Assembly (NCBI GenBank): GCA_019636535.1
Contig: JAHBXK010000002.1
Coordinates: 124,001 to 188,000 of the forward strand
Reading direction: 5' to 3'
Source of the DNA: Phycisphaeraceae bacterium
GTDB lineage: Bacteria > Planctomycetota > Phycisphaerae > Phycisphaerales > UBA1924
Length of the DNA: 64,000 nt
The position numbers were made by a program, and so were the translations under genes. Numbering within the stretch: the stretch's first letter is position 1; each line of letters starts with the position of its first letter. The notes under the pieces are model-generated. The model did not search any database. It was not told the DNA's origin and saw only the letters and a list, made by a program, of their open reading frames with translations. This document shows, piece after piece, positions 33,896-60,089 of this stretch.

Positions 33896-35038
33896 ATGAC
33901 GACCAAGAGCGCGAGCGAAACGCGGCCGTACCCGCTGATCTTTCGGCCGGTGGTGCTTGAGAAGGTGTGGGGGGGCAGGAGGCTCGCCCGGCTCGGCAAA
34001 GCGCTGCCCGAAGAGGCGAAGAAGTACGGAGAGAGTTGGGAAGTGGCGGACATGGCCTCAACGTCCGCGTCGGGTGCGGGCGGTGGCGCGGTGCGGACGG
34101 TGATCGCCAACGGCGCGCTGGCGGGCAAGACGCTGTGCGATGCGGCTGACTTGTGGGGGGACGACCTGTACTCGGCCACACGGGGCGGAGCGGGGGGGGC
34201 GGGGGGGGCGGGGTTCCCGCTGCTGATCAAGTACCTGGACGCGAGCGAGAACCTGTCGGTGCAGGTGCACCCGTCGCGGGCGTATCTGCGCGAGCATCCA
34301 GAGTTGGGGCATCATCTCAAGACCGAGTCGTGGTACATCGTCGACGCAGAGCCGGGCGCGAAGTTGTACATCGGTGTCAAGGAGGGGGTGACGAGCGCGG
34401 AGTTTGAGCGGCGGGTGCGAGAGGGGACAGTGGAGGAGGTGCTCATCACCGTGCAGGCGGTGGCAGGGGAGTGTCACACGCTGCCAAGCGGCACCATGCA
34501 CGCACTCGGTGCGGGCGTGGTGGTGGCCGAGGTTCAAACGGCGAGCGACACGACGTTCCGCGTGTACGACTGGGGCAGGCAGGGGCGCGAGTTGCACGTG
34601 GCGGAGTCGCTGGCGTGCGCGACGTTCGCCGACACGCCCGTCGAAAGGCGGACGCCCGCGCCGCCCCCGGCGGGGAAGTTGGAAGCGGGAGCCCTGTGCG
34701 GCAGGCTGGCGACGACGGAGTTCTACACGATCGATGAGGCCAGGCCGAAGAAGGGGGATGAGCTGACGATCGGGTACAAGTGCGGGAAGCAAGGGGGGCT
34801 GCAGGCCGTCAGCGATGGACGCGAAGTCGGCGGCGGGCGCGAGGGAGTGGGGGGGGGAGGGAGGTGCTTCATTTTGATGGTGCTGGCGGGTGAGGGTGAG
34901 GTGCGCTCGGCGGATGGGGCATTCGAGCCGGTGCGAGTGGGGCGCGGGACGACGGTGATGATCCCGGCAGGAGTGTCGGAGAGTGCGATCCTGCTGGCCG
35001 GGGAGGGCTTGCGGGTCTTGCGAGTAGGCGTCGCGTGA
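33896..35038 (+). CDS. manA: Mannose-6-phosphate isomerase, class I
   Basis: A 380-residue cupin-type isomerase interconverting mannose-6-phosphate and fructose-6-phosphate, feeding GDP-mannose synthesis. Family motifs: FRPVVLEKVWGGRRL, the zinc ligands in NLSVQVHPSRAY (Gln, His), the Glu in KTESWYIVDA and the distal His in CHTLPSGTMHALGAG. Two Gly/Ala insertions encoded by long G runs (34183-34215 and about 34835-34866) sit in loops. The ATG at 33896 is chosen because the fold begins at PYPLIFRP; the frame is open upstream to 33812. Its stop overlaps the GTG start of the following (interrupted) gene as GTGA. Confidence 0.92.
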   Translation: MTTKSASETRPYPLIFRPVVLEKVWGGRRLARLGKALPEEAKKYGESWEVADMASTSASGAGGGAVRTVIANGALAGKTLCDAADLWGDDLYSATRGGAGGAGGAGFPLLIKYLDASENLSVQVHPSRAYLREHPELGHHLKTESWYIVDAEPGAKLYIGVKEGVTSAEFERRVREGTVEEVLITVQAVAGECHTLPSGTMHALGAGVVVAEVQTASDTTFRVYDWGRQGRELHVAESLACATFADTPVERRTPAPPPAGKLEAGALCGRLATTEFYTIDEARPKKGDELTIGYKCGKQGGLQAVSDGREVGGGREGVGGGGRCFILMVLAGEGEVRSADGAFEPVRVGRGTTVMIPAGVSESAILLAGEGLRVLRVGVA

Positions 35039-35856
35039 GCGGAGAGAGCCCTGTCAGTGAAGTGATGGGCGAGCGCACGCCGTGGAAGCGCTGCGTGGTG
35101 GTCGTTGCTTTGGGAGTGATGACGAACTTCGCGGTGTCGGTGTACTGCTCGTTTCGTGGGCGAATGTGGATGTCGTACGCGGGGTCGGTGGATCGGCGCG
35201 CGACGTGGTGGTTCACAGCGGATGAGGCTGGTGGGGCGTGGTCGGGGAGCGGGGTGGATGACGTCGCGGTGACGCGGAACGCGATCACGGGGATGGTGAC
35301 GGTGTCAACCGCTTACGCGAGGGCGTATACGGCGGGGCCGGTGCGTTGGGGGATGCGCTCGCCGGGAGCAGCGGTGGGGGATGTGTCGCGCGACCGGATC
35401 GCGTATGTGTGCGAACCGTGGGCGGTTGATCTGATCGCCCCGGAGCACGCGGAGCGCGGGCCGGTGTCGGAAGTTCGGCCAGCGCCGGGGGCGGCGTTGA
35501 TCGTGCGGCATCGCATGGCGGCGGGGTGGCCGATGCTCGCCTTCGAGTTGGAATCCGAAGCGAAGAACGGGCCGATCTCGCCGAACGGGCTGCCGAGCGT
35601 TCAATTCGTCCGGCGTGGCGGCGTGCTCATCTCTGCGGGTCAGGTGCCGTTCTGGAACGCGCGACCTTGGGAGTACTGGGAGATTCCGCTGCGCCCGCGT
35701 TGGGGCGGGCTCGTGGTAAACTCGTCGCTGGCCGGTGCGGGATGGTGGGCGGTGCTGCTTGTGCCGGGCGTAGTGCGGCGGTGGCGCCGACAACGCGCTG
35801 GGCGGTGCGTGGCGTGCGGGTACTCGCTCGCGGGGCTGGGGGCTGGAGGGGGTGGG

Positions 35857-35861
35857 GATGG
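35857..35861 (+). repeat. 5-bp target-site duplication, left copy
   Basis: GATGG immediately left of the element; the same five bases follow its right end at 37194-37198. Confidence 0.85.
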
Positions 35862-35910
35862 TGTTGCGCCCGGGGACATGGTTGACGGGTGTTCGGGGAC
35901 ATCGTTTACA
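35862..35910 (+). repeat. Left terminal inverted repeat of the IS481-type element
   Basis: 49 bp. Aligned by hand with the reverse complement of 37145-37193, 36 of 49 positions agree, including a 10-bp identical block GTTCGGGGACAT core. Each end contains two copies of a GACAT-S-GTT-K-AC motif, likely transposase binding sites. Confidence 0.88.
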
Positions 35911-37075
35911 GGTGGGTGGTGGATTTCCCGTCGTCGTCCGGAGCGAGCGCAGCGAGCTGAGGACGACGACGGGCCGCGCGGCGGGTGCCGTCTCGTTGGT
36001 CGAGTGTCCCGACCTCGTGCGGGCCCAGACACACGTTCAGCACCCCGTCGACGTTCGTGGCTCGCAACGCCACACGCTGGCCGACGAGCGCCTCGCTGAT
36101 GTACCAGCGGCGTGCCGCGAACACGAGCATCCCGTCGCGGTGCACCCTGCGCACGATGTCCCCCGGCCCGTACTCGAACTCGGGCAGCCGCTCCGGATAG
36201 GCACGCTCACTGGGCTCGTAGCACGTCGCCGGGACACGCATCCCGATCGCCTCGTGCGGACGTTTCATGTTGTACACCCCTCGCCATGCATCGAACTCCT
36301 CCTGCGCTTCGCTCAGGTCCCGAAGCTCCGTGCGGCCCAGCAGTTCGGCCTTGAGCGTTCGGTGGAACCGCTCGGCCTTCCCCTGCGTCTGCGGATGGCA
36401 CGGCCGTCCGTGGATCACACGCACGCCCAGCCGCAGTAGCCACACCGTCAGACGTGTGTGCCCCAGTTCCCCGAGGGGCGTCCCCCACGGCGGGCCGTTG
36501 TCGGCCAGCAGCGTCTCCGGAAGGCCGAAGCGGCGGAACACGTCGATCAGATGCTCACGCACCGTCGGCTCCCGCTCGTTGTCGCACGCCCGCAACGCCA
36601 CCGCGTACCGCGAGTAATCGTCCAGGATCGTCAACGGATGGCAGCGGCGACCACCCCGATGCAGCGGAACGTGCCCCTTGAAGTCCATCTGCCAGAGCGC
36701 GTTCGGTCGTTCTCGCACGAATCGTTGACACGGCCGGTGCTTCTCCCCCTGCGCCGGGTCGATCTTCCCGTGCCGCACAAGGATCGCGTGCACCGTGCTC
36801 GCGGCCGGGACTCCCGCCGACCGGCCGCTGGCCTCAAGCACCGCCCGGATCTTCCTGGCACCCCACGCCGGGTGTTGATCACGCACCTTCAGCACCGCCG
36901 CTTCGATCGCCGCGTCGCTCCTCGACGGGCTCGCATGCGGGCGGCGTGAGACGTTGTGCAACGCCGGCTCACCCCCGGCCCCGTGCCGCTCGATCCACTT
37001 GTACCCCGTCGGTGCGCTGATCCCGAACCGCCGGCACAACTCCCGGATGTTCCGCGCCCGGCGACCGCCAGACAA
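35906..37075 (-). CDS. IS481-family transposase (DDE, integrase-core)
   Basis: A 389-residue DDE transposase. N-terminal helix-turn-helix: IRELCRRFGISAPTGYKWIE. Integrase core (rve) with the three acidic residues in context: Asp in LWQMDFKGH, Asp in TLLADNGPPW and Glu in QGKAERFHRTLKAE; HPQTQG precedes the Glu as usual. C-terminal segment GPGDIVRRVHRDGMLVFAARRWY is typical of IS481. The only in-frame start is TTG 37075, and the protein then lacks about 10-20 residues normally before the first helix. A segment reading EPREQICLAVAG in another frame just upstream could be that N-terminus, displaced by a frameshift. Confidence 0.9.
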   Translation of the reverse strand: MSGGRRARNIRELCRRFGISAPTGYKWIERHGAGGEPALHNVSRRPHASPSRSDAAIEAAVLKVRDQHPAWGARKIRAVLEASGRSAGVPAASTVHAILVRHGKIDPAQGEKHRPCQRFVRERPNALWQMDFKGHVPLHRGGRRCHPLTILDDYSRYAVALRACDNEREPTVREHLIDVFRRFGLPETLLADNGPPWGTPLGELGHTRLTVWLLRLGVRVIHGRPCHPQTQGKAERFHRTLKAELLGRTELRDLSEAQEEFDAWRGVYNMKRPHEAIGMRVPATCYEPSERAYPERLPEFEYGPGDIVRRVHRDGMLVFAARRWYISEALVGQRVALRATNVDGVLNVCLGPHEVGTLDQRDGTRRAARRRPQLAALAPDDDGKSTTHL

Positions 37076-37144
37076 ATCTGCTCCCGCGGCTCGATCGACT
37101 CCTCGCCGCCATCGAAGACTTTTGTTGGCTCGCCGTTGCTAATG

Positions 37145-37193
37145 TGTCAACCATGTCCCCGAACGGGTGTAAACGATGTCTCCGGTCTATACA
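37145..37193 (-). repeat. Right terminal inverted repeat of the IS481-type element
   Basis: 49 bp, inverted relative to 35862-35910; it ends in ACA on the + strand next to the right GATGG copy. Both repeats hold two versions of the same 12-13 bp motif, in swapped order between the ends. Confidence 0.88.
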
Positions 37194-37198
37194 GATGG
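37194..37198 (+). repeat. 5-bp target-site duplication, right copy
   Basis: GATGG, matching 35857-35861. After it the host gene's reading frame resumes. Confidence 0.85.
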
Positions 37199-37320
37199 GG
37201 GCGTGGTGTGTCCGGAGTGCGGGGGTGGGAGTGCTTCAGGTTGAGGCGGGACGGGTGCGGGTAAGTTGTGGCCGTGCTGAATCGCGAGCATCGATGTTCA
37301 TCAGCCCTCTGAATGACAGC

Positions 37321-38058
37321 ATGGTGAGACGTTCCCGGACACGTCGGTTCTTGCGGTGGGCGGCGGTGTGGTGGCCGATCGGGGCGGTCGTGTCGTTCGC
37401 GGTGGCGTTGGCGGCGACGCGGGCCGTGCAATGGAGCCCGGCGGCGCGAGCGATTCTGGATACCCCGAAGGAGTACGTCCAGCCGGAGACGCGCGGCGAC
37501 TTGGAAGGCAGAATGTTCATTTGCCGCTCACGGGTTGCCACGGAGCGGTATTGGGAAGGCAGCCATCCGTCGTCCGATACGATGCGAGGCCAGACGATCA
37601 AACAGATGCGCAGTGCCCGCTATGACCGGAGTTTGCAGACAACGTGCGGCCCGCCCTTTTACCGCGGTCTCCAGTCAACGGAACTGGGCGTGATCGAATG
37701 TGGGTGGCCATTGCGAAGTGCGTGGGGATGGTGGGAAGTGCCTTTATACCAGACCCATGTCGGGCCGCCTTCTGGCGGAATTCATTGGTTCCAACGCTCT
37801 TGGAGTGGGTTTCACTTGGACTACCCGATCCCTTGGTACCCGCTTTGGTCCGGACTCATTGTTAACGCCATCGTCTGGGGCTCAGCGATCGGCGTAGTAC
37901 CTGTCTGTATCCGGTTGGTTCGACGGCGGCTACGAGATCGTCGAGGCTGTTGTATCAAGTGCGGATACTCGCTTGCGGGGCTGAAGAGTGACGCGTGCCC
38001 GGAGTGCGGCACGGAGCGCGCGTACGGTGAAATCGCACAACGCTCGACCGCCGTCTGA
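37321..38058 (+). CDS. Zinc-ribbon membrane protein, intact paralogue of the interrupted gene
   Basis: A 245-residue protein with the same layout as the interrupted neighbour: basic N-tail, first membrane helix (VWWPIGAVVSFAVALAA), an extracytoplasmic domain of about 150 residues rich in Trp and Tyr, second helix (LWSGLIVNAIVWGSAIGVVP), a basic stretch RLVRRRLRDRR and a C-terminal ribbon CIKCGYSLAGLKSDACPECG. The short WEVPLYQ segment matches WEIPLRP in the paralogue. The zinc ribbon would face the cytoplasm. Function unknown. ATG 37321 is preferred; ATG 37294 would add nine residues. It lies directly behind the remnant of the interrupted gene, so the pair probably arose by tandem duplication. 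Confidence 0.78.
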   Translation: MVRRSRTRRFLRWAAVWWPIGAVVSFAVALAATRAVQWSPAARAILDTPKEYVQPETRGDLEGRMFICRSRVATERYWEGSHPSSDTMRGQTIKQMRSARYDRSLQTTCGPPFYRGLQSTELGVIECGWPLRSAWGWWEVPLYQTHVGPPSGGIHWFQRSWSGFHLDYPIPWYPLWSGLIVNAIVWGSAIGVVPVCIRLVRRRLRDRRGCCIKCGYSLAGLKSDACPECGTERAYGEIAQRSTAV

Positions 38059-57665: not shown

Positions 57666-60089
57666 GTGTTCGACCGCTCCCGCCATCGCGGCATTCTCGG
57701 ACGTGCCTCCCGGCCCGACACCCGCCGTCGCGCTCCCCGGCACGACCTCCCCTGCTTCGATGCGCTCGAGCCGCGCACCCTCCTCTCCTTCTCCTGGACC
57801 GCTCAGGAGGTCTACCTCGCCGAACTGGTCAACCGCGCCCGCGCCAACCCCCTCGCCGAGGGCACGCGCCTGGGCATCAATCTCGCCGCCGGCCTCACCT
57901 CCGCAGAGCAGGCGCGCCTCGTCCCCCAGCAGCCCCTCGCGCTCAACCAGTACCTCACCATCGCCGCACGCGCCCACGGCCTCGACATGGCCGCGCGAAA
58001 CTTCTTCGACCACATCAACCCCAGCGGCCTCAACCCCACCCAGCGCGCACAGGCCGCGGGTTACGTCGGCAGCGCGGGCGAGAACATCGCCGCCGGCTAC
58101 GCCTCCATCGACGCCGCCCACAAAGCCTGGCTCGAGTCCGTCGGCCACCGCAAGAACGTCCTGAGCCTCTGGTCCAACTTCGACAACTCGTTCCATTACG
58201 ACGAGTTCGGTCCCGGCATCGGCATGGGAATCGGCGGCGCATACAACAACTACTACGTCCAGAAGTTCGGCGTCCGCGCCGGCAACACCGCCTTCATCCT
58301 CGGCGTCGTTTACGACGACACCAGCGGCGACAACTTCTACACCATCGGCGAGGGTCGGGCGGGCGTCCGAATCGACGTCGCCTCCGCCGCGAGCCCCAAC
58401 GTCACCATCGCCACCTACACCACCACCGCCGCCGGCAACTACCAGTTCGATCTTCCGCAGGGCTCCTACACCCTCCGTTTCACCGAAGAGTCAACCGGCC
58501 GCATCCTCACCCGCACCGTCAACCTCGGCGCGTGGAACACCAAGATCGACGGGCTCCTCGCGCAGTTCACCACGCCCGTCATCGCCGACGACCACGCCGA
58601 CGCGGGCGACTGGACCGACGCCACGCTTATCCCCGTCTCACCCACCGTCGGCGACGGCGCGGCCGGCGGCGCCATCAACTTCGCGGGCGACACCGATCTC
58701 TTCCGCTTCGTCGCCGCGGGCGCCGGCCAGACCACCATCCTCCTCGGCGGCGGCGCGGGCTGGACTCGAACCCTCCGCGTCTATGACTCCGCCGGCATCC
58801 TCCTCGGCACCGCCTCCGAATCCTCTCCCGGCCAGTACGCCCAGGTCACCTTCACAGCCACACAGGGCGCCGCATACTTCCTCCTCGTCTCCGCCGAAGG
58901 CGCAGGCGCCGGCGCCTACGCGCTGGTCGTCGACGGCCAGTCCCCCCAATCCCAGCATCCCGGCCCCGGCGTCATCGACGACACCCACCGCCCCGCCGAC
59001 GCCGTCAAGGCCAACATCGGCCTCGGCGCCGACGGCCGAGTCGTCATGACCTACCTCAACGCCTTCGGCAAGCCCACGTTCGCCGCGCAGAACTCCGACG
59101 GCTCCTGGTCCATCACCGACCTCTCCACCGTCTTCAACGCCGCCAGTTTCACGGGTGAGGTCGTCCACTACACCGACGTCAACACCGGCGACCAGATGGC
59201 CGCCGTCCGCGCAAACCTCGGCATCGTTCTCTACCGCCTCGTCAACGGCTCCCACTGGATCGGCATGAACGTCGTCAAGCGAACCGCCGGCTCCACCAAC
59301 ATCGGCACCGAACTCTCCCTCGTCTTCGACAAGAACGGCCTGGTCACCATCACCGGCCTCACCAAGCAGGGCAAGGTCGTCCTCTGGCAGCAGTTGAAGA
59401 ACAACCTCCCCAACGGCAACCCGCGCTTCTACTTCCGAAATGTCAGCGACCGCGACCTCGCCCCACTCGGCCTCGCCGCCCGCTTCGAGTCCGGCCTCAC
59501 CACCTGGACCACCCCCCGCGGCACCATGAACATGGCCGCCGTCGATCCTCAAGGCCGCATCCGAATGTTCTGGCGCGTCAACAACACCGAGTGGACCGGC
59601 ATCATCCTCTCCGACTTCGTCAACATGCCCGCCGCCATCACCGGCGACATCACCGCCTTCCAGACCCCCGGCCGCGGCATCACCATCATCGGCAACGACG
59701 CCTCGGGCGGCACCCACACCATCCGCTGGCGCGCCAACAGCGGATGGATCTACCGAGGCATCACCGACGTCGGTGGAAACACCCTCCTCCAGGCCGGCGG
59801 CCTCTCCTCCTTCATCATGCCCGGCGCGCCCGCCTACGTCGCGGGCATCGACCTCGACGGCAACCTCACCCTCTACCGCTACCGCTACGGCAACGACACC
59901 TGGAACCGCGCAAGCGTCAACATCCCCGACGCCCCGGTCCTCTCCGCCTACGCCTCAACCTACTTCGACGAGTCCACGGGACAGACCTATATCGTCTCCC
60001 GATCCATCGGCGGCGAGTTCCAACTCCTCGCCATCGACCAGTTCGGCTCGTGGAGCACCCACAACCTCTCCGCACTCCTCGCGGCGTAA
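57666..60089 (+). CDS. LEPR-XLL surface protein with CAP/SCP domain
   Basis: An 807-residue exported protein. Near the N-terminus is the canonical FDALEPRTLLS motif (about residues 32-42). A CAP/SCP domain (about 45-195) has YLAELVNRARANPLAE, His in NFFDHINPSG, Glu in SAGENIAAGYAS, and SVGHRKNVLS. An SdrD-like B repeat (about 200-285; VVYDDTSGDNFYTIGEGRAG) follows. A pre-peptidase C-terminal (PPC) domain is at about 315-420 (DTDLFRFVAAGAG). The rest (440-807) is beta-rich, with repeated units such as LGADGRVVMTYLN and SGWIYRGITDVGGN, of unknown type. GTG start at 57666. The motif suggests cell-surface localisation; the CAP domain suggests binding or hydrolysis. Confidence 0.85.
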   Translation: MFDRSRHRGILGRASRPDTRRRAPRHDLPCFDALEPRTLLSFSWTAQEVYLAELVNRARANPLAEGTRLGINLAAGLTSAEQARLVPQQPLALNQYLTIAARAHGLDMAARNFFDHINPSGLNPTQRAQAAGYVGSAGENIAAGYASIDAAHKAWLESVGHRKNVLSLWSNFDNSFHYDEFGPGIGMGIGGAYNNYYVQKFGVRAGNTAFILGVVYDDTSGDNFYTIGEGRAGVRIDVASAASPNVTIATYTTTAAGNYQFDLPQGSYTLRFTEESTGRILTRTVNLGAWNTKIDGLLAQFTTPVIADDHADAGDWTDATLIPVSPTVGDGAAGGAINFAGDTDLFRFVAAGAGQTTILLGGGAGWTRTLRVYDSAGILLGTASESSPGQYAQVTFTATQGAAYFLLVSAEGAGAGAYALVVDGQSPQSQHPGPGVIDDTHRPADAVKANIGLGADGRVVMTYLNAFGKPTFAAQNSDGSWSITDLSTVFNAASFTGEVVHYTDVNTGDQMAAVRANLGIVLYRLVNGSHWIGMNVVKRTAGSTNIGTELSLVFDKNGLVTITGLTKQGKVVLWQQLKNNLPNGNPRFYFRNVSDRDLAPLGLAARFESGLTTWTTPRGTMNMAAVDPQGRIRMFWRVNNTEWTGIILSDFVNMPAAITGDITAFQTPGRGITIIGNDASGGTHTIRWRANSGWIYRGITDVGGNTLLQAGGLSSFIMPGAPAYVAGIDLDGNLTLYRYRYGNDTWNRASVNIPDAPVLSAYASTYFDESTGQTYIVSRSIGGEFQLLAIDQFGSWSTHNLSALLAA

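Follow-up and report, generated by a model that had tools for sequence, protein, structure and literature searches.

A gene for a zinc-ribbon membrane protein in a planctomycete genome breaks off between the two Cys pairs of its ribbon, and the locus raises the question of what interrupts it, where exactly the intruding DNA begins and ends, and how typical such an insertion is for elements of its kind. The window analysed here is a stretch of 64,000 nucleotides, positions 124001-188000 of contig C12 in a 3.56-Mb draft genome of 71 contigs. It is almost certain that an IS481-family element of the type represented by ISRm20 and by an element of Pseudomonas fluorescens SBW25 inserted once in this gene. 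The event is an ordinary gene disruption, and the element itself adds one more, new member to an IS481 subgroup already known; for the genome, it is a case of mobile DNA knocking out a gene.

The insertion sequence occupies 35862-37193 (1,332 bp, with its transposase on the minus strand), an extent defined by its terminal inverted repeats, target duplication, transposase and the ends of its relatives. The termini read TGT...ACA, and the 49-bp inverted repeats on the left (35862-35910, plus strand) and right (37145-37193, minus strand) each contain two motifs 23 nt apart, of the GGGGACAT type on the left and the GGRGACAT type on the right. The two ends are identical at 36/49 positions in an ungapped alignment. 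When all 49-mer pairings with starts at 35700-35950 and ends at 37100-37350 were scanned, 35862/37193 was the single top-scoring pair in the neighbourhood (binomial P ~3e-12), compared with a 99.9th percentile of 24-25. Copies of GATGG flank the element at 35857-35861 and 37194-37198. Members of the IS481 family carry terminal inverted repeats and generate target duplications of 2-15 bp (PMC10045372), and both are found here, as the 36/49 repeats and the 5-bp duplication. An earlier note on this DNA had proposed the same imperfect ends, flanking pentamers and boundaries; the repeat identity was recomputed to the same value as the best pairing nearby, GATGG was located on both sides, and the ends of >40 relatives gave the boundaries independent support. 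The observation that 35862-37193 is one cleanly delimited insertion sequence is confirmed. A search of 35700-37400 for sigma-70-type promoters and for terminator patterns came up empty.

There is also strong evidence from the interrupted gene that the boundary is exact, because joining the flanks returns the lost half of the ribbon at the spacing of the protein family. The 5' part of the gene (35035-35861, plus strand) extends through the first CxxC, and the 3' part (37199-37244, plus strand) encodes ...VVCPECGGGSASG and the stop; at present, the host frame runs from 35035 into the element and stops at 36099. As the earlier note had claimed, removal of 35862-37193 together with one GATGG restores an uninterrupted 290-codon reading frame that starts at GTG 35035, stops at TGA 37242-37244 and ends in ...GRCVACGYSLAGLGAGGGGDGGVVCPECGGGSASG. 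The restored C terminus, CVACGYSLAGL...CPECGGGSASG, aligns with those of paralogues, in which CxxCGYxLxGL...CPECG is invariant (six tails aligned), and in the joined protein this tail lies behind a hydrophobic segment, as is characteristic of the family. The order W.GL..N, then RR..R..R.G, then C..CGY.L.GL...CPECG is common to an intact neighbouring paralogue with a CIKCGYSLAGLKSDACPECG tail (37297-38058, plus strand, start codon approximate) and to four further genes in the genome. It could be argued that the two halves never formed one gene and that the restored CPEC frame arose by chance, and no orthologue was found that proves the joined state. However, an open frame, an exact duplication and CPECG at the family spacing after CxxCGYSLAGL all coincide, which leaves chance a barely credible explanation. 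The earlier note's reading of the split gene as that of a zinc-ribbon membrane protein is supported. The genome holds a fast-evolving, partly tandem family of ~48 such genes with a CxxCGY...CPECG zinc-ribbon end (counted at E < 1e-3; about 1% of total genome length), with examples at C1:30604-31567, C39:116-3669 and 35035-38058 of the window; no Pfam model scored above its cut-off for the two proteins of the family that were scanned.

The transposase frame (35906-37075, minus strand) encodes 389 aa from a TTG start. The assignment to the IS481 family, also made in the earlier note, is borne out by the NCBIfam IS481 model NF033577, which scores the protein at 257 bits (cut-off 224), and by the D131-D192-E235 triad; the IS3, IS21 and ISNCY models all scored under their cut-offs for the same protein. 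The catalytic triad had been described as intact, and it is indeed invariant among 28 aligned members. The transposase as a whole would not merit that word, being intact only from the helix-turn-helix on. Pfam recognises a helix-turn-helix and an rve domain; its leucine-zipper model for IS481 aligns only from position 28. Proteins of the relatives begin with MPW.E.S.M..R.EFV.LA..EGA, followed by the helix-turn-helix, and a profile of this N-terminal region does not begin to align to the window until its position 24, in the frame of the transposase; for its first 23 positions there is no match in any of the three frames. A single ORF with a complete N-terminal region is expected of the family; here the core is complete and the N-terminal arm is absent, which weakens the claim of activity and leaves the claim of IS481 descent untouched. 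Because the conserved arm is missing in all three frames, the transposase of this copy may be defective and the copy itself possibly inactive. A shortened protein could nevertheless be produced, since GGGAG lies immediately upstream of TTG 37075. The apparent loss could instead reflect misassembly or a faulty consensus of an element present in several copies, whose real transposase is complete; the genome is a draft of 71 contigs, and only 51 bp of a second copy precede the edge of its contig. Yet 23 unmatched profile positions in three frames need more than a single-base error, and the GGGAG ahead of TTG 37075 permits the shorter start, so that such an error is conceivable but unlikely.

The landing place is the loop, rich in Gly codons, that separates the two Cys pairs of the C-terminal zinc ribbon; the insertion site is a run of GGN glycine codons. 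How the element was inserted there can be pictured by analogy with IS3/IS481 elements. At each end the transposase would have bound both motifs, and it would have joined the ends to a target cut with a 5-bp stagger, so that a GATGG was left on each side. Going by the observed frame, the product, if any is made, would retain the membrane part and the first CxxC and would lose CPEC.

Care must be taken with the age of the insertion. The host gene had been described as intact until recently, and of this claim the interruption of a gene was upheld and the timing was not: an orthologous empty site was found in none of the 60 related genomes searched. The copy is also not pristine, because its outer ends mismatch at 13/49 positions and the N-terminal arm of its transposase is absent. 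The best partial match to the host protein in those 60 genomes was 40% over 127 aa, and the sole same-genus genome (77% complete) gave no match; judged from these matches, this protein is one that diverges fast. With no orthologous empty site for comparison, the only arguments for a recent date are that the duplication is exact and that both halves are unbroken, observations compatible with a young insertion. The earlier interpretation is partly supported, with its main points right, its recent date undemonstrated and the element less pristine than it implied.

A survey of relatives places the element in its subgroup. Its end architecture, TGT and then a pair of (C)GGRGACATnG... motifs set 23 nt apart, recurs in >40 relatives from Proteobacteria and Planctomycetota, most of them 45-54% identical; their lengths are about 1.26-1.46 kb and their duplications mostly 5 bp. 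The window element, with its 49-bp compound ends, motifs 23 nt apart and total length within 1.26-1.46 kb, has the features of this ISRm20/SBW25-like subgroup, whose nearest named elements are ISRm20 and the SBW25 IS481 element with 49-bp repeats. ISRm20 (IS481 family, Sinorhizobium meliloti) likewise has TGT...ACA termini, two-motif 49-bp ends (37/49) and a 5-bp duplication (CTCGT in the copy examined, which is 1,265 bp), and its transposase is 52% identical to that of the window; it differs in sequence and in a longer N terminus, its annotated CDS beginning 24 codons ahead of the matched region. The SBW25 element is 1,279 bp long with 49-bp inverted repeats, and its transposition has been observed in the laboratory (PMC11708052). 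Its length of about 1.3 kb and its repeats are like those of the window element (PMC11708052), and it appears to belong to the same subgroup, judged by description and not by sequence. Unlike the window copy, which sits in a gene at a non-palindromic site, it sits in REP sequences and has moved in the laboratory. Within the host's own order, the planctomycete PNC21 (G051) has IS481 copies with the same end architecture and transposases 51-52% identical, whereas these are 1,449-1,450 bp long and have the full N-terminal arm. The subgroup is patchy in that order: a transposase match at E < 1e-40 was found in 10/400 genomes, its own counted, and the double-motif end in 7/301. Viral contigs yielded one relative, 31% identical.

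The sites occupied by these relatives suggest that the whole IS481 subgroup, beyond the SBW25 element, favours REP-like palindromes, a more useful by-product than the gene disruption. REP palindromes are known targets of several IS families, IS481 not being among them (PMC1525189), and REP targeting is known for the SBW25 IS481 element (PMC11708052). Across 41 distinct sites, of which the window's is one, the left flank is usually C-rich (CCCTCCCC) and the right flank G-rich (GGGGAGGG); the flanks of relatives are those of loci L011-L064 and L251-L256. Such a C-arm/G-arm pair, a criterion picked after seeing those 41 sites, occurs at 29/41; for positions drawn at random from these sites' loci the figure is 0.24%. 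A sequence-blind measure, a complementary stem of at least 7 across the insertion, gives 23/41 against 3.3% of control positions, a count slightly inflated since some script-picked ends are uncertain (at L050 and L054, for example, the flank resembles IS-end sequence), and one drawn from sites that are not fully independent, several coming from one genome. In a small held-out plasmid set, the C/G pattern was found at 0/6 sites, and 2/6 lay in other palindromes. The preference is not strict, and the window copy is an untypical insertion for the subgroup because its stem, at 3, is the shortest among the 41 sites. It is about an even call that members of this subgroup, in several phyla, home in on the centres of GC-rich, REP-like palindromes (CCCTCCCC...GGGGAGGG among others), the window copy being a rare off-target event in a G-rich coding tract. 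In another genome (G253, loci L231-L240), CCCCGCnnnn stands ahead of every one of the ten IS ends found, a pattern that suggests repeated use of a single target, which may be a palindrome.

Further traces of the element are present in the draft genome. The last 51 bases of contig C15 (C15:59953-60003) match the element's right end without a difference, as expected where a repeat breaks an assembly. This second copy abuts a CRGCGYPLEERMAVCPECG tail, its flank (59833-60003, L008) encoding TTFYVLLLVYRRMTRPHKSGCRGCGYPLEERMAVCPECG, and it too appears, from that reading frame, to interrupt a zinc-ribbon membrane-protein gene. Both copies seen in the genome would then sit in such genes, which could speak for a preference of the element for them; with the family at ~1% of the genome, the coincidence is ~1 in 90. 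However, these are two events only, noticed post hoc and not predicted, and no such gene is interrupted by the subgroup IS ends retrieved from other planctomycete genomes; the ribbon matches near those ends are one gene ~1.7 kb away and one inside a longer intact ORF. A preference of this kind is very improbable, and tropism for zinc-ribbon genes was rejected as unproven, a single post hoc coincidence. Two unpaired ends, at C34:9528-9576 (L009; 47/49 to the left end) and C35:17855-17906 (L010), are relics. The C34 relic adjoins a GGGGGGCC...GGCCCCCC hairpin, an identical copy of which lies 600 bp off.
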